Of a stretch of DNA of 64,000 nucleotides, positions 2,937 to 64,000 are shown in pieces (the first letter of the stretch is position 1; each line of letters opens with the position of its first letter). A program made the translations under genes and the position numbers. The stretch is from Bradyrhizobium japonicum USDA 6 (lineage in GTDB: Bacteria; Pseudomonadota; Alphaproteobacteria; Rhizobiales; Xanthobacteraceae). The DNA is taken from the NCBI RefSeq assembly GCF_000284375.1, contig NC_017249.1:1-64000 (forward strand). Reading direction: 5' to 3'. The notes under the pieces are model-generated. The model saw only the letters and a program-made list of their open reading frames with translations, searched no databases and had not been told where the DNA came from.

Positions 2937-3681
2937 ATAAAAAATTGCTAGCGGGCACGGTAGCCCTCAACACGCTGGCTGCTCCTGCCTCTGCCGTTGA
3001 TCCGGCCGCGCGGCCTTACTTCAAAGCGCCTCCGGCGGTCATTCCGATCTATGATTGGAGCGGCTTCTACGTCGGCAGTGCTGGGACGTGGTCAACGCCG
3101 GCGGCGTGGTCGTCGCTCCGCCCGTTGGCATGGGGCGCCATCATGCGACGGGAGGCACGGTGGGCGGTCACATCGGCTACCGCTGGCAAATAGCGAACTC
3201 GGTGTTCGGTCTGGAGACGCAGGGCAATTGGGCCGATTTCAAGGGCTCCAACGCGAACCTTGCTTTCGCAGGCGTCCGGGATGACTCCACGCTTGATGCA
3301 TTCGGCCTGTTCACGGGCCAAGTCGGCTATGCTTGGAATAACGTGCTGCTCTATGTAAGAGGTGGGGCTGCAGTCGTCCGTGACAAATACCGGGTCTCCG
3401 ATTTTGCGACCGGGCTCACTATCGACAACGGCAGCGAAACTCGTTGGGGCGGCACGGTAGGGGCGGGCCTTGAATTTGGCTTTGCTCCGAACTGGTCCAT
3501 CGGCGTTGAATACGACCACCTGTTCATGGGTCGTCGGGATGTGGATTTCTTTTTTTCACCCGGACTCGTGGGTGTTCCGGTGGGCACTTTTGCAGGGACT
3601 GCCCGTATCGGTCAGGACGTCGATATCGGCTTGGTCCGTGTGAACTACCGGTGGGGTGGCGTGATCGCCACGACCTATTGA
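2937..3681 (+). pseudogene. Broken outer-membrane beta-barrel protein (Omp25/Omp31-like porin)
   Basis: This family forms an eight-stranded beta-barrel in the outer membrane of rhizobia and Brucella. The N-terminus reads KKLLAGTVALNTLAAPASA (a signal peptide ending at an AxA site) followed by ARPY, KAPP and YDWSGFYVG, the family signature after the signal peptide. The body then continues in another frame from about 3078 (CWDVVNAGGVVVAPPVG, TGGTVGGHIGYRWQ) to the C-terminal VRVNYRWG at 3681, typical barrel strands. Two lesions are seen. The start codon is damaged: AAT then six A then TTG fits ATG-AAA-AAA-TTG with the G lost. An out-of-frame deletion near 3078 removes the first surface loop. 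The rest of the barrel is intact. Confidence 0.75.
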
Positions 3682-4969
3682 TCGATCTTCGCCAAAATGG
3701 CGCGGGTTCGCACCAATATCCTGAGCCGCATCGCGGCATAGAAACCTTGGCAACAGGGACTCGCATCAATAGCGCTATCGGCTTCTTGTCGGTACATCGG
3801 CTCGAGCTGGTTAGGCGTGGTTCAAAGGAATCTGGCTGATCTGGTTATGACGCAGCGCCACGGCGAGATCGCGGCGAACTCAAGCGTGCTGCCGTGGTCG
3901 AACGCCAGCCGCTTAGTGGCTGGCTGCGCCGATTTCCCGGCCCCGTGCCTCCACCTGCATCACCGTCGGCTTTCCGGCCGTCGGAGAATGATGAGGCAAA
4001 AATAGTTTTGTCGACCGTCGTAGTTAACCCGGCCCTCGCTTAGGGAGACACAGGTCATCGATTACAATCGTTCCGGTCGGCCGCAGCACGCTCATCGCAC
4101 AGGCAGCGCACTGAAATGCGAGCCGAGGTGCGAGCCGGGCGCACCTTCGTGCTACGACTTGGTCGACCAGGTCGAGGCCGCACTGGCCACCTCGGACGAA
4201 AGGCCGACGAGCGGTCGAAGCGGCGCTCGTGCGAGGGTGGGACATAACGTCGACGACGTGATGGCTTGCGTCATCGTCGCTGCCGATCTCTGCGCCCGAT
4301 CAGCCTGCCGAACCCCCGCTGGCGCGGATCAATTGGGAGCGCCTCGGAGAGCGGATGCAAAATCTCGAGAGGTGGATCGGCAGCGCTGAAGCGGAACTCT
4401 TGTGTTAGGACAGAAACGCGGCTGTCATCCGAGCCGCATTGCCAGCGTCTGCTCGTAGTAGATCACCTCCGCGAAGCCACGGCCGAGGAAGACCGCCAGT
4501 GGGTCGGCGACGAAATCAAACGCGAAGGGGGATGAAGAACAAATCGGTTTGCCTGATCCGACCGGGCTGCAATGAAGATGACCCCCTTTGACAGGGTTGC
4601 CCCTCTTTACAACTTCCGATTGCGTGATAGTAATCCCCTCTAGCCCTAAGAGGGGGGCGGCCGTGGCGATCATCGAGAACATTCGTCTGCTCAAGGGCGT
4701 AGCCGTGTTGCGCTGATTGACTTCATGAAGGTGGTTGACGAGACCCACCTCACCGACCTGCGGAAATACTGTAAACCCTAGCCGCCATCAGCAATGGAGC
4801 GCATGTACCGGCTTAACCCAACAAACCATCTGTGTGTCCGGCTTTGTCGCGCTGCAATCAAGACGCCACGATGAGGAGGTCCGGTTCTATGCCTTTGTCA
4901 TGCTGGCGGGTGACGGCGACGACTATCGGCGCCTGCCGCTGTCAATGCCGCTAGCATGAATAAAATGGG
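3682..4969. other. Gene-poor stretch with short degraded frames
   Basis: No complete gene supported. The minus frame about 4425-4550 (FDFVADPLAVFLGRGFAEV) and a plus stub at 4722-4782 (DFMKVVDETHLTDLRKYC) look protein-like but match nothing I recognise and are isolated. CCCCTCT-AGCCCTA-AGAGGGG near 4636 can form a hairpin but has no T-run. Confidence 0.3.
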
Positions 4970-6043
4970 CTAGATACGGCCGAAAGTCGCCCACACCCCG
5001 TCTTCGCCGTCCCAGCTGCCGCGGCTCGCCGCCTTGGAGTACTCCGTGGCGCGCTGCTCGAAGAAATTGGCGTGCTCGACGCCATTGAGAATCTCGACGA
5101 GCCACGGCAGCGGATGCGCCTTGAGCTGGGTGAACCCGCCCTCCTTCGCCTCGAAGAAGCCGAAGACCGGGGCAATCCGGAGTTGGGCCAGTCGCCAGTC
5201 GGCGACGTAGCGGACGTAGGCGTGGATATGCTCAGGCAGCATCCCCTCGATCTTGCCAAGGCCGAAGGCGAGCTCGACGAAGTTCTCCTCCAGCTTCACC
5301 ATGGTCTTGGCTACGTCGACAATGTCGTCGCGGACGGGGCGCGTCACCGCGCCGGTTTCGCGGTGCCATTCGTGAAATAGCTTGATGATGCCCTCGCAGT
5401 GGAGACTCTCGTCGCGCACTGACCAGCTTACGATCTGTCCCATGCCGTTCATTTTGTTGTGGCGTGGGAAGTTGAGCAGCATGGCGAAGCTGGCGAACAA
5501 GGCCATGCCTTCGGTGAAGGCGCCGAACATCGCCAGGGTACGGGCGACATCCGCCACGCTGTCGACGCCGAACTCGTGCATGTAGTCCGCCTTGGCGCGC
5601 ATCTGCGCATAGCCGCGGAATGCCTCGAACTCGGTCTTAGGCATACCGAGCGTCTTGAGTAGCAGGGCATAGGCGTCGATATGAACCGTCTCCATGTTAG
5701 TGAAAGCGGCCATCATCATCTGGACGGTGAGTGGCTGGAAGATCGGAATGTACCGCTTGAAATAGTTGTCGCCGACCTCGATGTCCGACTGAGTGAAGAA
5801 ACGGAAGATCTGGGTGAGCAGCGCGCGCTCGCTGTCGGTGACGCGGCCCGAAGCCCAGTCGTTGAGGTCGGCGCCGAGCGGCACCTCCTCGCCCATCCAG
5901 TGGGTCTGCTGCTGGCGCTTCCAGAACTCGTAAGCCCAGGCATAGCGATCGACGTCGTAGCTGCCGGTCGAGTCAAGGAGGCCGACGCGTCCCTTGCCGA
6001 TCAACGTGCGCGGATCGGCGCGCGATAGATCGATCACTGACAT
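4970..6043 (-). CDS. nrdB: Class I ribonucleotide reductase small (beta) subunit, 357 aa
   Basis: The beta subunit holds the di-metal centre and radical that start ribonucleotide reduction by the alpha subunit. Start ATG 6043 has GAGGAG nine bases upstream. Metal ligands are visible: E and D in TQSDIEVGD (about residues 83-91), ETVH (about 118-121), then GAFTEGMALF and DESLHCEG. A tyrosine four residues after the ETVH histidine (HIDAY) occupies the position of the radical Tyr of E. coli NrdB, so a tyrosyl-radical enzyme is likely. The reading frame overlaps the end of nrdA by ten bases, a translationally coupled operon under the upstream cobalamin riboswitch. Length fits the family. Confidence 0.93.
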   Translation of the reverse strand: MSVIDLSRADPRTLIGKGRVGLLDSTGSYDVDRYAWAYEFWKRQQQTHWMGEEVPLGADLNDWASGRVTDSERALLTQIFRFFTQSDIEVGDNYFKRYIPIFQPLTVQMMMAAFTNMETVHIDAYALLLKTLGMPKTEFEAFRGYAQMRAKADYMHEFGVDSVADVARTLAMFGAFTEGMALFASFAMLLNFPRHNKMNGMGQIVSWSVRDESLHCEGIIKLFHEWHRETGAVTRPVRDDIVDVAKTMVKLEENFVELAFGLGKIEGMLPEHIHAYVRYVADWRLAQLRIAPVFGFFEAKEGGFTQLKAHPLPWLVEILNGVEHANFFEQRATEYSKAASRGSWDGEDGVWATFGRI

Positions 6044-7977
6044 GCGAGGCACTCCTCATAGTCGGTGCGCTGCCGCGCCGGCTGCTGCGTCGGCGTTGCA
6101 TCCCCGGCAATTTTGCCGGCGAACGCCGCGCGCGAGATCGACTTTGATCGACAGTAGTAGAGGCTCTTCACCCCACGCTTCCACGCCGTCCAGTGCAGCA
6201 TGTGGAGGTCCCACTTATCGACGTCGGCCGGCAGATAGAGGTTGATCGACTGGCTCTGGCAAATCAACGCGGCGCGGTCGGCGGCAAGCTCGACGATCCA
6301 GCGCTGGTCGATCTCGAAGGCGGTGCGAAAGATCGCTTTCTCGTGCTCCGACAGGACGTCGAGATGGGCGACCGATCCGTCGTGCGCGATGATCGACTCC
6401 CAGGTCGCCGAGGTGTCGGCGCCTTTCGCGGCCAGCACCTTAGCGAGGTGCGGATTGCGCACCGAGATGGCGCCGGATAGCGTCTTGTGGGTGTAGATGT
6501 TGGCCGGGATCGGCTCAGTGCAGGCGCTGGTGCCCCCGCAGATGATGCTGATCGAGGCGGTCGGCGCGATTGCGATCTTGTGGCTGAAGCGCGCCATCAC
6601 GCCGCGTTCCAGGGCATCCGGGCACGGGCCACGCTCGCGAGCGAGCGCCACGGATGCGGCGTCGGCTTCGCGACGGAGTTTTCGGAACATGTTCAGATTG
6701 AATGACTTGGCCAAGGTACCCTCCATTGGAATGCCCTTGGCCTGGAGAAACGAGTGGAAGCCCATGACGCCGAGGCCAACGGAGCGCTCGCGCAGGGCGG
6801 CGTAGCGGGCACGCTTCATTCCGTCCGGCGCCACCGTGATGAAGTGCGTGAGCACGTTGTCTAGGAAGCGCATGACGTCCTCTATGAAGCCGGGCTCCTC
6901 ATTCCACTGGTCCCAGGTCTCGAGGTTGAGCGACGACAGGCAGCAAACCGCGGTGCGCTCCTCGCCGCGATGATCGATGCCGGTCGACAGGGTAATCTCG
7001 CTGCACAGGTTGGAGGTCGAGACCTCGAGGCCGAGCTCGCGCTGGTGCTTGGGGAGCGCACGGTTCACGGTGTCGATGAACAAGAGATAAGGCTCGCCGG
7101 TCTGCAGCCGGTTCTCAAGGATGCGTTGCCACAGCTGGCGGGCGTCGATCTCGCGGACGACCTCGTTAGTCTTCGGGCTGCGCAGAGCGAATGCGGTGCC
7201 GGCGCCCACGGCACACATGAACTCGTCGGTGACGTTGATGCCGTGATGTAGGTTGAGGCTCTTGCGGTTGAAGTCACCAGACGCCTTGCGGATCTCGAGG
7301 AACTCCTCGATCTCGGGATGGTGGATATCGAGATAGACCGCCGCCGAGCCGCGCCGCAACGAGCCCTGGCTGATCGCCAGCGTGAGGCCGTCCGTGACGT
7401 GGATGAACGGGATGATGCCCGAGGTGACGCCGCCCCTCGCCTTCTCGCCGATTGAGCGAACATTACCCCAGTAGGTGCCGATGCCGCCGCCATTGGAAGC
7501 AAGCCAGACGTTCTCGTTCCAGGTGCCGACGATGCCTTCGAGCGAGTCCGACACTGAGTTAAGGAAGCACGAGATCGGAAGGCCGCGCGTCGTGCCGCCG
7601 TTGGAGAGCACCGGTGTGGCCGGCATGAACCACAGCCGAGACATCGCATCATATAGACGTTGGGCATGCGCAACATTGTCCGCGAAGGCGCAAGACACTC
7701 GGGCGAACATGTCCTGGAGGCCTTCGCCGGCGAGCAGATAGCGGTCGGTCAGCGTCAGCCTACCAAACGAGGTCAGCAGGTCGTCGCGCGACCGATCGAG
7801 CGAAAGGTCAGACGGAGTTGGCGATCGCGCGGGGGGCCTCGGCAGGGGAGCCGGCAATGCTGGGGGCTGCACAAGACACAGTTCAGGTGTGGTAGGCTTT
7901 GCCTGCGCTGAGGGCTGCCGCACACTCGGCAGCTCAATGAGATGACCATACTGATCGAAATCGTAAGACGCCGACAT
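6034..7977 (-). CDS. nrdA: Class I ribonucleotide reductase large (alpha) subunit, 647 aa
   Basis: Reduces ribonucleotides to deoxyribonucleotides for DNA synthesis together with NrdB. Start ATG 7977 (MSASYDFDQYG) was chosen over the longer frame because the upstream part is the riboswitch leader. Conserved parts are visible: MPATPVLSNGGT, LPISCFLNSVSDS (redox Cys), NLCSEITLSTG, TAVCCLSSLNL (second half of the active-site cysteines), PTASISIICGGT, and a C-terminal ECLACQ swinging-arm cysteine pair. No ATP-cone is visible at the N-terminus, so classic dATP inhibition of overall activity may be absent. The leader suggests repression when cobalamin is plentiful, which makes sense if the cell also has a B12-dependent class II enzyme (not seen here). 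Confidence 0.93.
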   Translation of the reverse strand: MSASYDFDQYGHLIELPSVRQPSAQAKPTTPELCLVQPPALPAPLPRPPARSPTPSDLSLDRSRDDLLTSFGRLTLTDRYLLAGEGLQDMFARVSCAFADNVAHAQRLYDAMSRLWFMPATPVLSNGGTTRGLPISCFLNSVSDSLEGIVGTWNENVWLASNGGGIGTYWGNVRSIGEKARGGVTSGIIPFIHVTDGLTLAISQGSLRRGSAAVYLDIHHPEIEEFLEIRKASGDFNRKSLNLHHGINVTDEFMCAVGAGTAFALRSPKTNEVVREIDARQLWQRILENRLQTGEPYLLFIDTVNRALPKHQRELGLEVSTSNLCSEITLSTGIDHRGEERTAVCCLSSLNLETWDQWNEEPGFIEDVMRFLDNVLTHFITVAPDGMKRARYAALRERSVGLGVMGFHSFLQAKGIPMEGTLAKSFNLNMFRKLRREADAASVALARERGPCPDALERGVMARFSHKIAIAPTASISIICGGTSACTEPIPANIYTHKTLSGAISVRNPHLAKVLAAKGADTSATWESIIAHDGSVAHLDVLSEHEKAIFRTAFEIDQRWIVELAADRAALICQSQSINLYLPADVDKWDLHMLHWTAWKRGVKSLYYCRSKSISRAAFAGKIAGDATPTQQPARQRTDYEECLACQ

Positions 7978-8084
7978 CGGCAACCCCGTGATATTTGGGG
8001 GCTGGGACCGTGCGGACGACTTGCGAGGGGACCGGGCAAATGTCCCCGGCTGCAAGCGACCCACCGGGCACCCCGCCCGAGGAC

Positions 8085-8216
8085 ATGGGTTCTGTCGCGG
8101 TAGGTTTCCTGGCTCGCGGGTCGCTGCGGCTGTCGGCCTTCCCAGCGCTGTCGCGCTAATGCCTCGGAATAGCCGCTGCCGACACAATGGGTTCCCCCCT
8201 AACACCGTGCCACCAT
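8085..8216 (-). promoter_or_regulatory. Cobalamin (AdoCbl-type) riboswitch-like leader of nrdAB
   Basis: Reading the minus strand from 8214: GGTGGCAC, then GGGGGGAAC, then GCTGGGAAGGC near 8140, and finally GAGCCAGGAAACCTACC (8115-8099). The last two blocks and their order are the hallmark 3' half of the cobalamin riboswitch; the 5' half is more divergent. The element ends about 110 bases before the nrdA ATG, leaving room for an expression platform rich in GC hairpins. B12 riboswitches in front of class I ribonucleotide reductase genes are known where a class II enzyme is also present. Confidence 0.72.
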
Positions 8217-8377
8217 ATATGCGAATTTAAAACCACTACGACACCACATATAGAAGCCTTTGCCCAGACTCGTCAAGACGGCACAGTCAAGTTAACCAGT
8301 TGGAGCAGCCCCGAGGTCGAGGTTCGAAATTCGCCGAGCGCCTGTCCTGAGAGCCTCACTCAAAAAACATAGATGTC

Positions 8378-8580
8378 TCAAGGCCTGGCCAATCGGCGAG
8401 TTAGGAGCCTCAGATGGGCGACGAGCGGCCAGGCGAGCTCGGTAGCGGCGGAACCTTCGAAGTCTTTGCAGAGATGCCCACATCTGCCGAGCCACGCAAA
8501 GGTGCGCTCGACGACCCAGCGCCTGCGATCGGCCAAGATGTGCTCAAACCTTTGGAAGTGGCGTCGCAAATTCTCCAACA
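8378..8580 (-). mobile_element. IS5-family transposase C-terminal fragment
   Basis: The minus frame reads RHFQRFEHILADRRRWVVER, followed by TFAWLGRCGHLCKDFE and LRLLTRRLARP. The WVVERTFAWL segment carries the last catalytic glutamate of IS5-group DDE transposases. Only about 65 residues of the C-terminus match; the rest of the gene is missing and the upstream frame is unrelated. It is a dead remnant. Confidence 0.75.
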
Positions 8581-8958
8581 GGGGAACAGCAACCCTGGAC
8601 ATCCTGAATGTTGGCATCGATCGGTTCGCGGTCCGCGAATTGAGTTGGGCCGGATCGGGTTTCGGTAGCCATACGCGTCTCGCCATTCATCGCTTTCTGT
8701 GGCCTTAGATCAAAAATTGTCTGGAGCCCGACCGCAAATCGATGCAGCCGCCCGTGGCAATATCCCAGCTTAGTGGATTTGACCCCGCCAGCTCTCACAT
8801 CAGACGTGCCAACTTTGCCGAAGAGACGATTGGTATGCTTTTCGCAGGCCCGGCGTCCGCCTCACGTGCTCAGTTGTCTGGCCGCGAACATAAGCCGTCC
8901 TGACCGAACGCGGTCATGTCAGGTTATTGGCAATCAATCCTAACGGGATGAGGCGGAG

Positions 8959-9600
8959 CTATGCTTGAGTCTGGGTGACGAGCCGATCCGGCGGCGCGGC
9001 CTTGCTGGGTCGGAATGAAGCCGTTCGCAACATTGGCGTGAGCGGCGGCGAAGAACCGTGTTGTATCTCACCAACGACCTTGAAGCCGTGACGTTGGTAA
9101 AAGGGAATGTTTTCAGGGTTCGAACTTTCGAGGTAGGCAACAATGCCGTCCTCATCGCATCGTTGAAGGGCGTAGTTCATCAGCAACGTGCCAAGCCCTT
9201 TTCCGACCCAGTTCGGATCGACGGCAATGAGTGGCAGATACCAATGTGGCTCGTGGGGACGATGTTCGGCCATTCTCCGCCGCAAGTGTGCCATATCCTC
9301 GGTAATCTCCGGGCGCAGGGATAGCGCCATGATTGCATCCAATGCCTCCTCATCTTGCTGCACGTTGGGAGGCAGCCACAGGGCCGCGCCACGAATCTCT
9401 CCCGCGACGTAGGCTGTGCCATGTGCAAATGCTCGGCCCCCACAGGCGTCAATGAACTGAGGCATGCTTCTAAGGTATTGCCTTGGGTCAGGCCAGCTCC
9501 AACGCATCAACGGATCCGCGGCAAAGCCGAGCACAATTGTCCAGACAGTGCTTGCACGAATGTTTGCGTTCGCAGATCTGATATCTGATTCTTCTGTCAT
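8959..9600 (-). CDS. GNAT-family N-acetyltransferase, 213 aa
   Basis: Transfers an acetyl group from acetyl-CoA to an unknown amine. Start ATG 9600 (MTEESDIRSANANIRAS) is the first Met with family-like sequence after it. The acetyl-CoA loop is seen as VDPNWVGKGLGTLLMNYAL (Q/RxxGxG/A type motif, about residues 128-146), preceded by HWYLPLIAV and followed by YLESSNPENIPFYQRHGFKV, the usual C-terminal beta-strand and helix. Many relatives of this YLPLIAV type sit near polyketide or toxin-resistance genes; here it stands alone among remnants. Substrate unknown. Full length. Confidence 0.85.
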   Translation of the reverse strand: MTEESDIRSANANIRASTVWTIVLGFAADPLMRWSWPDPRQYLRSMPQFIDACGGRAFAHGTAYVAGEIRGAALWLPPNVQQDEEALDAIMALSLRPEITEDMAHLRRRMAEHRPHEPHWYLPLIAVDPNWVGKGLGTLLMNYALQRCDEDGIVAYLESSNPENIPFYQRHGFKVVGEIQHGSSPPLTPMLRTASFRPSKAAPPDRLVTQTQA

Positions 9601-10074
9601 GAAGTCGTTTCGGGGCTCTGTTTTGGCATTGGCCTTCCAAGGAGGAGCATGGCATCGACACATCTGACGGTGAGCGGAATGGATGCACCGACGGGGACTC
9701 GCCGGGTGCATTTGGTTTCCCTTCCGAGATCTCCGCCTGTCTCAGACGGCTGACTTTGACGGCCACTTCGGACGAAGGCTCCTTGGTAGGCAATGCTTGG
9801 ATCTACATATTCCTGGCGGGCTTCTGCGCTTCCACGCCCTATCTGGAACCCGCCCCGCCCTTCCCAAGGAAGCTCCGACGTTCTCAAGGTCGACACGGTT
9901 CGGCAGCCTGCAACCGTCCGCGAAGGGAATGACATGAGGACGCCTTTGATATTGCAAGTGCGAAGAAGTCAGGGCATGGCGAACATCGGGCGATGGCTGC
10001 CTGAACCGGGCTCCGGCACGAGCAAACAGCCAGCCAAGTGTCGCGCGTCGAGGTCCAGACTAGGCAAGGAATCA
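9601..10074. other. No gene seen
   Basis: Only short overlapping frames of inconsistent composition. Nothing recognisable. Confidence 0.35.
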
Positions 10075-10323
10075 TCACCTCGTCTCGTATTGAGCGGTTC
10101 TCGTAAGTTTCTTGGTCAAAACACATGCTAAGTGCGAAACCTCCATTGCCAACGTCGTGTCCGCGGTCACCGGCAGAGAGAGCTTTCGTCTGCGAGACTC
10201 ATATGCGTAGTACAGCGGCTTTCCAATTATCGCATGTTGTCCGCGCTCCTTGATGTTCTTGTCTCGGCGCATCATCGCCGCGATTCGCGATTGTCGGATC
10301 AAGGCAACGGGACTGGATACCAC
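10075..10323 (-). CDS. Possible hypothetical protein or remnant, 82 aa
   Basis: The product (AALIRQSR-like start, IAAMMRRDKNIKERGQHA, TLAMEVSHLACVLTKKL) has plausible protein composition, basic with an amphipathic C-terminus. No clear ribosome-binding site and no recognised family. It follows another weak minus-strand frame at 10342-10695 and the two could be pieces of one decayed gene. Confidence 0.25.
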   Translation of the reverse strand: MVSSPVALIRQSRIAAMMRRDKNIKERGQHAIIGKPLYYAYESRRRKLSLPVTADTTLAMEVSHLACVLTKKLTRTAQYETR

Positions 10324-10341
10324 GACGCTGCCGCCGTCGAC

Positions 10342-10695
10342 CTACTGAACAACGCAACTTGGGATCGCGCGAGAGCTTTCGTGCATTGATTGATCGTCAG
10401 GCGTGTCGATCGCTCGCACAACGGCGTTAGCTCTATCGAGCGAAAACGTTGCTGTCGTGCCCTCGTCGTACTTGACGCCCAGGTCAGTTGTATCCGCCGC
10501 GATCCTTGCCATAGTGGGAAAGACAGCAGGCTGACGTAGTTGCGTGAGTAACTCTCGTAAAAGAGGTTTTTGGCCACAAGCGTTGATGGCTTCGTAGGAC
10601 TTGTTCCAACTCACTCCCTGATCGGAACGGTTTGGAAGATTTCTTGGCGCTGGTATGCTTGCCACACCAGGTCCGAGATCCACGTGGTGAGTCAT
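10342..10695 (-). CDS. Possible hypothetical protein, 117 aa
   Basis: Start taken at ATG 10695 (MTHHVDLGPGVASIPAP). The sequence has mixed composition (LLRELLTQLRQPAVFPTMAR, YDEGTTATFSLDRANAVVR) that looks protein-like, without membrane segments or a known motif. No partner gene. It lies just outside the left end of the IS21 element and may be a fragment of the gene that element entered. Confidence 0.3.
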   Translation of the reverse strand: MTHHVDLGPGVASIPAPRNLPNRSDQGVSWNKSYEAINACGQKPLLRELLTQLRQPAVFPTMARIAADTTDLGVKYDEGTTATFSLDRANAVVRAIDTPDDQSMHESSRAIPSCVVQ

Positions 10696-10929
10696 GTTGT
10701 TTCGTTCTGTCTTGGAAAACTGTAGTCGTCGGGGCAGCATATCAGAAGGCAATGTAGCGAAGACCTCCCCAGAATAGGTAGGGATCTATCCGCCCTTGAT
10801 GCTGAGTTGGCCCGGGTTCAACCTTGAGCATAGTCTGTCGAACGCCATCCGGAACTGCCCCTTTTCGTCATGAAGAACTGCCCCCACCATCGGACGTTTG
10901 ATGGTCGCTTCCGCCGGTGACGGGACGGA

Positions 10930-60215: not shown

Positions 60216-61622
60216 TCAGGCAATCAGCCGTGTCCGATAGGCCTCAAGCCGCGCCAGTCGATCCTGCAGATACGTGCGATATTGGATCAGAAGATCATCT
60301 GGACTGGCGAACTCGCCAAGCACCCTTTCCGTCTCTGCCATCGCCTGATCGATGGTGAGGCAGCCCGAACCGTCGCCTGTCATCTGATCGGTCAAGTAGC
60401 GCTCGACCTCCAATCGAGTAGGTTCGGGGAGAACCGAGCGCGCTTCGAAATAGATCAACCGGAGCCCGAACCAGCGCAGTCGCTCGTCCTCCATGCCCTG
60501 GACGATCGCGAGGCGGTCCTCCCATCGCGCATCGTGGAACGCGGCAATGCGTGCCTCATCAGCAGGACCGGGAAAGCCGCTATAGATGCGCTCTTCGAGG
60601 TGCGGAGATAATGCGTAGGGCTCGCGCGCAGCCATGTAAGCAGCCACAAGCCGCGCGCACAGACCAGTGTCCGCCTTCATGAGACAGGCCCGGTCTCCGG
60701 TGGCGCCCATCGAACCGCCATCCAGCATATGCTCGGGAGCGTCGTAGAACGCCGTCAGCGTGGGCGCGGCATTGATCCTGAAGCGACGAATCGGACTTGG
60801 CTTCTGCGTCCGATGAACTTGCAGTTCGAGATCGCTCATCGCGGCAAGCCGGCCCATGTCTTCGTTGAGACTCAAGCAAAGCCGGCCATTGGCCTGATCG
60901 GGATCCCTGCCGATGCAGACGACCGACGTATGATAAGCTTGGCCGCCGAAAAACTCGGTCAACACGAAGCCGTCTTCGACCTCAATGAAATCCGCGACGG
61001 TCGCTTTGTTCGAGAAGCGCACGAAGCGCTGCCACAACTCCGGAGACCTTCGATAGACCAATCGGCTCAGTTCGAGCGTCGCAAGCACATCGGACATCGC
61101 GTCGTGTGCCCGAGCATGTGCGACGCCATTTGCCGCCGCCAACTGTTGCAAGCGAAATGTCCGCCGCCCTTCTTCGCTGACCGGCACAACTAGTTGCGCA
61201 GGCGACACGGCATCGGCGGCCATCACCAGACTGAGCGCATCGGCGCGGCAGTTTCGATGATTACTTGTCAGATATGCCGGATATAGGCACTGGAAGAGGG
61301 CGTGGCGCAGCATCTCCTCGTCGAAGCGGATGGAGTTGAAGCCGACGAAAACCGCAGGGCTCCAGGAAATCAAGGTCCGGCGAATATCTCCTACCATGGT
61401 GTAGTGCGACGGCAGGCTGGAATCAGTCAACGACTCGATCGGCAATCCGTTCGTCCGAAGCGCCGAAGGATGGGGAAGCACATGTGGCTGAAGGCGCGAG
61501 CGCGTCTCGAACCGAGCCACCTCGTTCAGGTTTTCATCGGTGCGAACAGCGGCGAAGTGGAGAATCTGATCGAAGCCACGCTTAAGCCCCGTCGTCTCGG
61601 TGTCGAAAAAGACGAAGCTCAT
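60216..61622 (-). CDS. DEDDh 3'-5' exonuclease, SbcB (ExoI)-like, 468 aa
   Basis: Degrades single-stranded DNA from the 3' end in the founding E. coli enzyme. ExoI motif FDTETTG with D7 and E9, Exo II FNSIRFDEEML with D101, Exo III ARAHDAMSD with H173 and D178. The C-terminal part carries the SH3-like and helical region of ExoI (GRLAAMSDLELQVHRTQKPS, YEARSVL-type end). 468 residues is close to ExoI. It is the last gene of a minus-strand operon with the ImmA/IrrE protease (7-base gap) and XRE regulator. The combination suggests a DNA-damage or phage-response role. Confidence 0.88.
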   Translation of the reverse strand: MSFVFFDTETTGLKRGFDQILHFAAVRTDENLNEVARFETRSRLQPHVLPHPSALRTNGLPIESLTDSSLPSHYTMVGDIRRTLISWSPAVFVGFNSIRFDEEMLRHALFQCLYPAYLTSNHRNCRADALSLVMAADAVSPAQLVVPVSEEGRRTFRLQQLAAANGVAHARAHDAMSDVLATLELSRLVYRRSPELWQRFVRFSNKATVADFIEVEDGFVLTEFFGGQAYHTSVVCIGRDPDQANGRLCLSLNEDMGRLAAMSDLELQVHRTQKPSPIRRFRINAAPTLTAFYDAPEHMLDGGSMGATGDRACLMKADTGLCARLVAAYMAAREPYALSPHLEERIYSGFPGPADEARIAAFHDARWEDRLAIVQGMEDERLRWFGLRLIYFEARSVLPEPTRLEVERYLTDQMTGDGSGCLTIDQAMAETERVLGEFASPDDLLIQYRTYLQDRLARLEAYRTRLIA

Positions 61623-61629
61623 GGGTGTG

Positions 61630-62151
61630 CTACCAACGAGTCAACCGGAAACGCATCGCCGCCGGGCTTACCCTAAACCGGCGCGCGAGACCCTCAATCG
61701 CTGCCTCGTCCTCGAGATCCACACCACCGCCTTCCAAGACGGCGGCTAAGAGGTCGCCGGGGATCAACAGCTCTGAGGCGAAGGCGTTGGCTTCGATCTC
61801 TATCGGTTCGGTTCCGAGCGCTGAGATATCATCTCGGAAGAGAACGCGTATCCCCTTGTCGACGTGAACGGCTTGTCTGATGTCTTCGTCGTGCAGCACA
61901 TGATGGGCGAGTTCATGGGCGGCGGAAAAACGCTGGCGGTTGGGATGATGTAGCGCATTGACGCCGATGATGCCGATGCCGTCCTTGATATAGGCCATGC
62001 CCGAAAGATCCTCCTCCAGCGGTGCGTACTGAAGGACGATCTTGCGCGATTTAATGATGCGTTCGACAGGGACGGGCGGCGCTGAAACGCCGAACTCCCG
62101 AAGGATCGAGCGCGCAGCTTCGCGCGCTCGACCTGGATCAGCGTCCCTCAC
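61630..62151 (-). CDS. ImmA/IrrE-family metallopeptidase, 173 aa
   Basis: Zinc protease that cleaves a partner HTH repressor. HELAHH at residues 79-84, with third ligand Glu in EIEANAFASELLIP (E120). Preceded by YIKDGIGIIGVNALHHPNRQ, the usual beta-hairpin. The start overlaps the XRE stop in ATGA, so the two proteins are made together, as in ImmA/ImmR and CapP/CapH pairs. The C-terminus has a winged-helix-like tail (LARRFRVSPAAMRFRL). Small form, with no sensing domain visible. Confidence 0.92.
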   Translation of the reverse strand: MRDADPGRAREAARSILREFGVSAPPVPVERIIKSRKIVLQYAPLEEDLSGMAYIKDGIGIIGVNALHHPNRQRFSAAHELAHHVLHDEDIRQAVHVDKGIRVLFRDDISALGTEPIEIEANAFASELLIPGDLLAAVLEGGGVDLEDEAAIEGLARRFRVSPAAMRFRLTRW

Positions 62152-62543
62152 GATCCGACCTTAGAGCCGCGGCGTGGCGCGAGCGCGCTGCTGATCAAAT
62201 CAGCGACCTGGGCGCCCGCGTTCTCGGACAGCGACTCCTTCGAAAGCTTCTCATTGACCAGCGTCATCTTCAATTCCTCCCCGATGGACTTATGCGGCAT
62301 TGGCGGCAGCAGGTCGGCGACCTTCGCGAAATCAAGCGCGGTGGCGAGGGCATAGACATGGTGCAGCAATATGTTCTGCCGGCCGCTCTCGATGTTGGCG
62401 ATCGACGCGCGAGACATCTTAACTTTGCTCGCCAACTGGGCCTGGGTCAGCGAAAGAGCCTTGCGCCGCGTCGAGACCGCGTTGCCGAACGCTATATAGA
62501 CCGGATTGCCCGCCATCGCCGATGTTTGCGCTGCTTCGGGCAT
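62148..62543 (-). CDS. XRE-family regulator paired with the protease, 131 aa
   Basis: Cro/C1-type HTH in the N-terminal half (GNAVSTRRKALSLTQAQLAS, KVKMSRASIANIESGRQNIL). The C-terminal region is helical and then disordered, where ImmA/IrrE-type proteases usually cut. Start ATG 62543 or the in-frame ATG nine codons later. It lies back-to-back with the DUF2188/nucleotidyltransferase genes, the position of a CapH-type repressor controlling a divergent defence operon. Candidate operator repeats lie in the intergenic space. Confidence 0.9.
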   Translation of the reverse strand: MPEAAQTSAMAGNPVYIAFGNAVSTRRKALSLTQAQLASKVKMSRASIANIESGRQNILLHHVYALATALDFAKVADLLPPMPHKSIGEELKMTLVNEKLSKESLSENAGAQVADLISSALAPRRGSKVGS

Positions 62544-62567
62544 AATGTCAATCCCGCAAACATTATG
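62541..62567. promoter_or_regulatory. Candidate operator in the divergent region
   Basis: CATAATG (62541-62547) and its inverse CATTATG (62561-62567), 13 bases apart, overlap the XRE start. A TTGACA box at 62601-62606 could be the -35 of a plus-strand promoter; the -10 is not obvious. Confidence 0.4.
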
Positions 62568-62677
62568 TGCTTATTACAAACTTACTAGTGTGATCATTAC
62601 TTGACATATTGGCCAATCTCAGGAATCCATATCCCGCCGGAGAGCGCGACGCTCACCGACGAGGCGAAGGAACCGAG

Positions 62678-62899
62678 ATGTCGAAGCGCATTCATGTCGT
62701 GCCGCACGAATCAGGTTGGGCAACCCGACGTGAGGGGGCGTTGCGGGTGGGGTCCACCCATCACACCCAAGCCGAGGCGACGGAGGCGGCGCGTAGCACT
62801 GCGCTTCGCGAGCACGGCGAAGTCGTCATCCACCGTCCCGATGGCCGCATTCGCGACGCCAACTCCTACGGAAACGATCCCTTCCCGCCGAAAGGATAA
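62678..62899 (+). CDS. DUF2188 small protein, 73 aa
   Basis: MSKRIHVVPHESGWATRREG then STHHTQAEATEAARSTALRE and GEVVIHRPDGRIRDANSYGN match the DUF2188 family, small beta-rich proteins. Start ATG 62678 (the open frame continues upstream but that part is the promoter). It is the first gene of the plus-strand operon and lies 75 bases before the nucleotidyltransferase. Role unknown; a link to the nucleotidyltransferase is inferred only from position. Confidence 0.85.
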   Translation: MSKRIHVVPHESGWATRREGALRVGSTHHTQAEATEAARSTALREHGEVVIHRPDGRIRDANSYGNDPFPPKG

Positions 62900-62974
62900 C
62901 CCAACGGATCGCTCACCAGGGCGATCCGGTCGGATCGGCGCGCGGAGGTCATTCAAAGAAGAGGACCAATATCG

Positions 62975-64000
62975 ATGTCGAATTTTCCGTCCCTGCGCCG
63001 CGATGATCGGCCTGATGATCCCTTTGCCGACCCGCTGGACGCGGTACTCGCCGAGCTTGCCATCAATATTCAGCTTCCGCCCGGCCTGCATGCCAAGGCG
63101 GTCGAGCGATATGAGGCGGTCCGACGCTACATCGAACGACCCGGTAGTCCGCTCGAAGGCAGGGTCGCCTGCTTCTATCCCCAGGGCTCCATGGCAATCG
63201 ACGCAACCACGTCGACCCGCGGCACGGACGACGAGTACGATCTCGATATCGTCGCCGAGATCGAAGGCCCCGACCTCGGTCCCGAGGCGCTGCTGGATGA
63301 CCTGGAAGCCGCACTCGAGAGCTACCCGGTAAGCAAGGTCGTGCGCCAAACTCGGTGCATCACGCTCTACTACGCCGACGGCATGCATCTTGACATTACG
63401 CCGTCGCGGCGGCGGGCGCCGAAGGAGAAGGAAGGCGAGATCCCGCATGCGAAGAAGGGGACTCGCAGCGACCCGGCGCGCTATGTGCCGATGAACTCAT
63501 ATGCCTTCGGGAAGTGGTATTGCGCCCGAACGCCTACCGAGGAGCGGTTCGCGCTGGCGCTGAATCGTCAGCTGTACGAACAGGCCGGAATCGCCTTCGC
63601 CGCAGCGGACGTCGAGGACGTTCCGCCGCAAACGCCGCTCATCATCAAGAGCGTGACGACGGTCGCGCTGCAGCTAATCAAGCGGCACCGCAACATCGCC
63701 TACGCGACCGAGACGGGCCGGATCCCGCCATCGGTGATGTTGTCGTGCCATGCCGGCCATGCCGCCCGTCCGGGCATGAGGCTTGCGGAAATGCTGATCC
63801 GGCAGGCGCGCTGGACGGCCCGCGCGATCGACGACGCCGCGAAGCGCGGCCAGCTCCTGGTCGTGCCCAACCCCGAATTTCCGGTCGAGCGTTTCACCGA
63901 CCGTTGGCCAGAATCTCAGCTGCAACAGACAACCTATTCTCGCCACCTGCACACCCTCGCTAACGGGCTCGAAGCCGCCCGCACCGGCGACGTGCAGCTG
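62975..64000 (+). CDS. CD-NTase (cGAS/DncV-like nucleotidyltransferase), partial
   Basis: Synthesises a cyclic nucleotide second messenger in CBASS anti-phage defence. Start ATG 62975 (MSNFPSLRRDDRPDDPFADP). Nucleotidyltransferase core: FYPQGSMAIDATTS with the GS motif (71-72), DEYDLDIVAEI with D89 and D91, and HLDITPSRR with D140, the three metal-binding acids. Then PLIIKSVTTVALQLIKRHRN and RIPPSVMLSCHAG, the OAS1-C-like helical part. The 342 codons in the window are most of the gene; its end and the effector lie beyond 64000. SD-like GAAGAGGACC upstream. Confidence 0.92.
   Translation, partial: MSNFPSLRRDDRPDDPFADPLDAVLAELAINIQLPPGLHAKAVERYEAVRRYIERPGSPLEGRVACFYPQGSMAIDATTSTRGTDDEYDLDIVAEIEGPDLGPEALLDDLEAALESYPVSKVVRQTRCITLYYADGMHLDITPSRRRAPKEKEGEIPHAKKGTRSDPARYVPMNSYAFGKWYCARTPTEERFALALNRQLYEQAGIAFAAADVEDVPPQTPLIIKSVTTVALQLIKRHRNIAYATETGRIPPSVMLSCHAGHAARPGMRLAEMLIRQARWTARAIDDAAKRGQLLVVPNPEFPVERFTDRWPESQLQQTTYSRHLHTLANGLEAARTGDVQL

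Follow-up and report, generated by a model that had tools for sequence, protein, structure and literature searches.

A short CapP-like protease and an ExoI-type exonuclease in the regulator cassette facing a Bradyrhizobium japonicum CBASS operon

The CBASS operon and the three genes that face it

The window analysed here comprises the first 64,000 nucleotides of the 9.2 Mb single-contig genome of Bradyrhizobium japonicum USDA 6 (NC_017249.1), and its coordinates are also those of the genome. Near its right-hand end begins a cyclic oligonucleotide-based antiphage signaling system (CBASS), and divergent from it, on the opposite strand, lie genes for a CapH-like XRE repressor, a short CapP-like M78 metalloprotease (ImmA-type) and an ExoI/SbcB-type exonuclease (Table 1). 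The exonuclease is a recurrent third member of this regulator cassette. A first-pass annotation, made from the letters of the window alone, had placed five genes here, and the open-frame list together with Pfam and PADLOC confirms all five placements. The Pfam matches are RNase_T (48.7 bits) and Exonuc_X-T_C (31.6 bits) in the exonuclease, Peptidase_M78 (94.6 bits) in the protease, HTH_3 (41.0 bits) in the repressor and DUF2188 (77.5 bits) in the small protein that opens the divergent operon. The mechanical start of the DUF2188 frame is a TTG at 62609; the ATG chosen in the first-pass annotation is internal to that frame.

Table 1. Features of the locus, and immune operons faced by the cassette at the loci compared. 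Positions are those of the window unless marked as genome.
Feature	Position or loci	Strand	Basis or remark
ExoI/SbcB-type 3'-5' exonuclease of 468 aa, closing the cassette	60216..61622	-	Pfam, PADLOC, 1FXX match
Short CapP-like M78 metalloprotease, 173 aa, GTG start, HELAH motif	61630..62151	-	Pfam, PADLOC, alignment
CapH-like XRE repressor (predicted), 131 aa, 4-nt overlap with the protease gene	62148..62543	-	Pfam, PADLOC capH 49 bits
Candidate operator: inverted repeat CATAATGT-N11-ACATTATG across the CapH start codon	62541..62567	.	0/60 shuffles equal
Intergenic words common to cassettes: TGTCAA 62546, CAAACA 62557, AAACAT 62558	within 62546..62606
Intergenic words common to cassettes: GTGCTT 62567, ACAAAC 62576, TTGACA 62601	within 62546..62606
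DUF2188 protein of 73 aa, opening the divergent operon	62678..62899	+	Pfam; PADLOC PDC-S16 107 bits
CdnG-type CD-NTase, continuing to genome 64225	62975..64000	+	SMODS, PADLOC, structure match
E2, beyond the window	genome 64226-64681	+	PADLOC E2
Cap5 HNH-SAVED, beyond the window	genome 64665-65801	+	PADLOC, 7RWK match
Cassette with CBASS II-short with Cap5	L002, L006, L007, L076
Cassette with cyclase and two-transmembrane (2TM) effector	L077
Cassette with CBASS II with phospholipase, E1-E2, JAB	L101
Cassette with cyclase plus E2	L133		no effector named
Cassette with CBASS III: TRIP13, two HORMA, cyclase, NucC	L064, L124, L126, L127, L128, L130, L131
Cassette with ubiquitin-like operon, ThiF with Multi_ubiq	L079, L081, L129, L132, L134
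Cassette with ubiquitin-like operon, ThiF without Multi_ubiq match	L065, L078, L080		subset of operon genes given to Pfam

The immune operon reads as a complete type II-short CBASS (CdnG, E2 and Cap5). Its cyclase clears the SMODS cut-off of 26.5 bits with scores of 35.8 and 33.3, is scored at 572 bits by the PADLOC Cyclase model PDLC00800, and is identical across residues 2-416 to the molecule named 'CD-NTase' in PDB 7LJN, which we take to be the CdnG of Bradyrhizobium diazoefficiens. By cyclase, the closest named relatives are two Bradyrhizobium records at 100% identity. The possibility of a non-CBASS nucleotidyltransferase was considered and is ruled out by the identity to 7LJN. Past position 64000 the contig carries an E2 (PADLOC E2 family, 178 bits; a weak match of 28 bits to the SmCdnG partner 8HSB) and then a Cap5-type HNH-SAVED protein (PADLOC, 524 bits; 353 bits to 7RWK), which is the candidate cyclic-nucleotide-responsive effector of the operon. 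The frames of the cyclase and the E2 abut, and those of the E2 and Cap5 overlap. The operon has neither E1 nor JAB, and the next genes past Cap5 are an Mrr-type fragment and a PADLOC candidate, PDC-S71, both on the opposite strand. The first-pass annotation had named the locus CBASS from the cyclase and the regulators, with an effector expected outside the window, and it was right on both counts: a plausible effector lies downstream, and the cyclase does not group with non-CBASS nucleotidyltransferases. The operon itself is already known, and nothing is new among its parts; compared with the CdnG-E2-Cap5 type II-short systems of 7LJN, 8HSB and 7RWK, whose cyclase is identical and whose E2 and Cap5 are homologous, no essential difference was seen. 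Passages of a review give 3'2'-cGAMP as the activator of Cap5 (PMC10419184).

The layout proposed for the regulators, in which a helix-turn-helix (HTH) gene and an M78 gene point away from the immune operon, holds as well, and the search with CapH and CapP profiles gave matches of 49 and 105 bits. CapH/CapP-type control of this CBASS is probable from layout and precedent. In the parts of PMC13373217 available, single-stranded DNA (ssDNA) activates CapP, which cleaves CapH, and the pair is described upstream of CBASS and Bub operons. The pair at this locus has the same HTH and M78 protease makeup as CapH+CapP (Lau 2022; structure 7T5T), with profile and fold matches, and differs in having a CapP of 173 aa without the C-terminal region and an added ExoI. 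The capP profile is covered at positions 4-151 of 242 only, and the protein aligns to residues 6-180 only of a 278-residue CapP chain; the missing region is present in three aligned CapPs of 301-329 aa. The protein thus corresponds to about the N-terminal two thirds of CapP and is not a full-length CapP. Its alignment to Deinococcus geothermalis PprI stops at residue 175. In the Deinococcus PprI-DdrO pair, the binding of ssDNA depends on a GAF-like domain of PprI, and PprI without that domain is described, in the sections of the paper at hand, as keeping basal cleavage while losing ssDNA binding and stimulation (PMC10904395). The short CapP ends at nearly the same place as PprI 1-176, so ssDNA binding or sensing by the short CapP itself may be lost.

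The third gene had been called a DEDDh exonuclease. That call stands and can be made more specific: the protein is of the ExoI/SbcB family, with RNase_T and Exonuc_X-T_C domains, all DEDDh residues (D7, E9, D101, H173 and D178) and the ExoI C-terminal domain, and its role as a recurrent cassette member is added here. It matches PADLOC RTasSbcB at 336 bits and E. coli ExoI (1FXX) at 120 bits. Its score of 182 bits against an NCBIfam equivalog cut-off of 260 marks it as a divergent member. E. coli ExoI degrades ssDNA from 3' ends. One ExoI was found in this genome, the cassette's (8 of 19 first-look candidates scored), so it may also serve general repair. The predicted structure is poor, with a mean predicted local distance difference test (pLDDT) score of 63 and values below 60 over most of the N-terminal, catalytic half. 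No close relatives were found among viral contigs; the two matches in phage records are weak, with identities of 29% and 26%.

The nearest known comparison is Cap18, which is also a 3'-5' exonuclease in CBASS loci; its structure is given as 7T2S (in excerpts of PMC11981726), and in E. coli upec-117 it is listed following CdnC, Cap7 and Cap6 (in excerpts of PMC9122588). In contrast to Cap18, the exonuclease here is a full ExoI/SbcB and is encoded with the regulator. That it is Cap18 itself was considered and dropped, since 7T2S gave no match by sequence among 9 hits at E<=10; in fold the two may be related. A search of open-access PMC for ExoI with CapH/CapP or Bub gave Cap18 only, with the original CapH+CapP and Bub papers outside its reach.

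Recurrence of the cassette across immune operons

Recurrence was evaluated at 40 ExoI loci: 37 picked by rank from exonuclease-only searches, the window's own locus (L002), and L006 and L007 from a cyclase search. Two loci with the same cyclase as the window's (L004, L005) were excluded from the counts. The search thresholds differed (E of 1e-10, 1e-40 and 1e-70), and the 40 loci are the stronger matches: 13 of 29 places besides the window were fetched at 1e-10, 4 of 17 new places at 1e-40 and 14 of 14 new places at 1e-70, and 6 of 43 plasmid records were opened. First-look candidates in the genome searches were scored in part only.

An XRE gene and a short ImmA gene lie directly upstream of the exonuclease, on the same strand, at 22 of the 40 loci (19 of 37 without L002, L006 and L007), with 11-43 nt between ImmA and ExoI. 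At all 22 an immune operon stands divergent on the opposite strand, 14 of them CBASS and 8 ubiquitin-like; the ThiF match of L078 is slightly below the Pfam cut-off (27.9 against 28.1 bits). The exonuclease as a chance neighbour was dropped on the strength of the 22 in 40. Three near-copy pairs leave 19 distinct cassettes, and the residue check, intergenic, word and Mantel analyses, from which near copies were excluded, cover 19 or 18 loci. The DEDDh residues of ExoI and the HExxH of the protease are intact in 19 of 19. Among 30 CdnG loci, ExoI is present at 4 of 4 with a short CapP and at 0 of 19 with a full-length-type CapP, 18 of which are informative (the contig of L019 stops beside CapP) and 3 of which were checked by PADLOC.

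Pairwise distances among ExoI, CapP and CapH at 18 loci correlate strongly (Mantel r 0.91, 0.87 and 0.91; 0 of 2000 permutations as high). The same distances do not correlate with operon type (r 0.09, 0.04 and 0.08; 282, 541 and 377 of 2000 permutations as high), which shows that immune operons have been swapped. ExoIs of 75% identity face a type II-short CBASS at L007 and a type III CBASS at L126. An ExoI tree of 36 rows, which left out the near copies L076, L124 and L131 and the truncated L104, needs 3 changes for the cassette label against a shuffle mean of 12.2 (0 of 500 shuffles as low), and 7 changes of operon type within the 19 cassette rows. On these comparisons the cassette moves as a unit across CBASS type I-like, II, II-short and III layouts and ubiquitin-like operons.

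The intergenic regions have words in common. Regions of 140 nt that include the CapH start and extend upstream from it were compared between 18 cassettes, 18 canonical CapHP loci, which are mutually related, and 360 random pieces, whose GC content is 0.60 against 0.46 in both the cassette and the canonical regions. ACAAAC is found in 14 of the 18 cassettes, in none of the 18 canonical loci and in 9 of the 360 random pieces, and AAGCAC in 13, 0 and 28; across 100 shuffled sets the commonest word reached a count of 10. TTGACA is present in all 18 cassette regions and is the only one of the cassette words also found in the canonical ones. At five loci with a short ImmA and without ExoI, ACAAAC is present in 2 and AAGCAC in none.

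Some related operons have other regulators. A related CdnG-E2 operon at L008 is faced by a single-chain RmrA-like HTH-M78 protein (4773-5828, minus strand) and one at L009 by an M78 protein that matches HTH weakly and has a small partner gene (4333-5816, minus strand); L010-L014 gave no M78 match.

A possible switch and the role of the exonuclease

Altogether we are led to favour, at somewhat better than even confidence, a CBASS silenced by a divergent three-gene switch, in which the CapH-like repressor and the short CapP are joined by an ExoI scavenger that sets an ssDNA threshold. The parts and their order, the intact catalytic residues, the recurring cassette and the common intergenic words are what sequence comparison contributes to this picture. 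In the predicted mechanism CapH would bind the common intergenic region and repress both directions. Upon infection or DNA damage, ssDNA would lead CapP to cleave CapH, and the immune operon would be expressed; the E2 would prime or conjugate the cyclase, the cyclic nucleotide would activate Cap5, and Cap5 would degrade DNA and kill the infected cell. ExoI would eat ssDNA from its 3' ends, setting the threshold and resetting the system, and CapH would be cleaved only once ssDNA exceeds the capacity of ExoI. The encoding of ExoI in one run with CapP suggests an action of ExoI on the ssDNA signal, and a threshold-setting scavenger is suggested as its simplest role. That idea has a precedent: passages of PMC10419184 already propose that Cap18 clears single-stranded nucleic acid (ssDNA or ssRNA) that acts on CapW or on CapH+CapP. 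Repression, CapH cleavage, ssDNA as the trigger of this short CapP and the direction in which ExoI would shift the response are inferred.

Several observations weigh against the threshold switch. The short CapP lacks the counterpart of the ssDNA-binding region of PprI and may not itself sense ssDNA. At 18 of the 40 ExoI loci there is no XRE or ImmA homologous to the window's, and at 5 of 5 lower-identity plasmid loci opened (L106-L110) an XRE and short ImmA pair stands without ExoI, so ExoI is not an essential partner. When 36 ExoI relatives are compared more widely, D7 and H173 prove almost but not wholly invariant. Linkage alone would yield co-variation of adjoining genes. The cassette ExoIs do not form one clean clade: a single change suffices in 0% of 200 bootstrap trees, and the 21-row group that holds all 19 has support of 91/91, below the tool's starred level; one of its two extra rows, L135, nearly duplicates a cassette ExoI but has a changed N-terminus, where E9 is T. 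TTGACA also occurs in 12 of the 18 canonical regions, palindromes at p<=0.05 (60 shuffles) were found in 9 of 19 intergenic regions only, and in scans for sigma-70 promoter and terminator consensus sequences none passed. Lastly, catalytic-dead Cap18, the nearest functional analogue, left phage protection unchanged in the experiments excerpted from PMC9122588.

The missing region of the short CapP also feeds a different explanation, in which ExoI is the ssDNA sensor: bound to 3' ends, it would dock on the short CapP and activate it. We consider this rather unlikely. The end of the short CapP, at CapP 180 and PprI 175, lies close to that of PprI 1-176, a truncation that no longer binds ssDNA or is stimulated by it (per the sections at hand of PMC10904395); ExoI accompanies the short CapP and not the full-length type among the CdnG loci; and ExoI, CapP and CapH co-vary. 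The pairs at L106-L110 argue the other way, as they have no ExoI at the locus, the level at which they were covered. Were it so, the cassette would be a split damage sensor, with a protease that lacks the ssDNA-sensing region and an ExoI that reads ssDNA, plugged in before CBASS I-like, II, II-short and III and ubiquitin-like operons; this picture, too, is rather unlikely.

ExoI might instead be a co-induced antiviral or repair effector, with an autoregulated cassette whose derepression raises a nuclease against phage ssDNA or for host repair while CBASS is armed. ExoI shares one run with the repressor and would rise upon derepression, and its top PADLOC model, RTasSbcB, is classed under reverse-transcriptase defence; however, ExoI accompanies several kinds of immune operon, each with its own effector where typed, and we judge this role improbable. 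The cassette could also be independent cargo, for example a mobile-element maintenance unit, that merely adjoins immune operons. ImmR/ImmA-type pairs are controllers of integrative elements, and the window holds a type IV secretion system (T4SS) coupling protein, DUF3363, ParA and recombinase genes. Set against this are the divergence of the immune operon in all 22 cassettes and the words common to the intergenic regions, which make independent cargo very improbable.

Genomic surroundings and significance

The CBASS locus may lie within an integrative element, and the stretch 29787-58879 of the window carries recombinase, T4SS coupling protein, DUF3363, ParA, Toprim and ParB-type genes. A Methylocystis plasmid with a cassette has a ParB-family gene nearby as well. 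DUF2188 stands between cassette and operon at the window's locus and at L006, L007, L064, L124 and L128, in both type II-short and type III CBASS; it gave no sequence match among solved structures at E<=1, and no paper treating it together with CBASS was found in the open PMC literature. Downstream of Cap5 lie a 184 aa frame with an Mrr_cat match at residues 137-178 only (L002:10165-10719, minus strand), perhaps a truncated restriction-type nuclease, and the PDC-S71 gene (L002:10835-12688, minus strand; 380 bits). At L006 a protein whose N-terminus is similar to that of the PDC-S71 protein is also downstream of Cap5, on the other strand (9091-10899, plus strand), and has no Pfam match. Farther on, at genome 68932-70353 (L002:12933-14354, plus strand), is a protein of 474 aa, by its matches to HNH_2, PNP_UDP_1 and Effector-associated domain 7 an HNH-nucleosidase-EAD fusion and possibly a separate defence protein. 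On the Pukyongiella plasmid of L106, two patatin and nucleotidyltransferase pairs and an AbiEii-type gene surround one XRE and short ImmA pair (3357-10465).

What this analysis adds is the short CapP, ExoI as a third member and the mobility of the cassette across types of immune operon. CapW and CapK+CapS are likewise portable switches, responsive to damage or ssDNA, across CBASS, Bub and other operons (in the parts of PMC13373217 available), but their protein families (WYL; a kinase plus STAS-HTH) differ from those of the cassette. The findings point to a modular build of immune switches, which would pass as parts from one bacterial immune operon to others of very different kinds. In one such switch an ssDNA exonuclease has been added, which opens to test how damage would be sensed by an M78 protease without the ssDNA-binding region.

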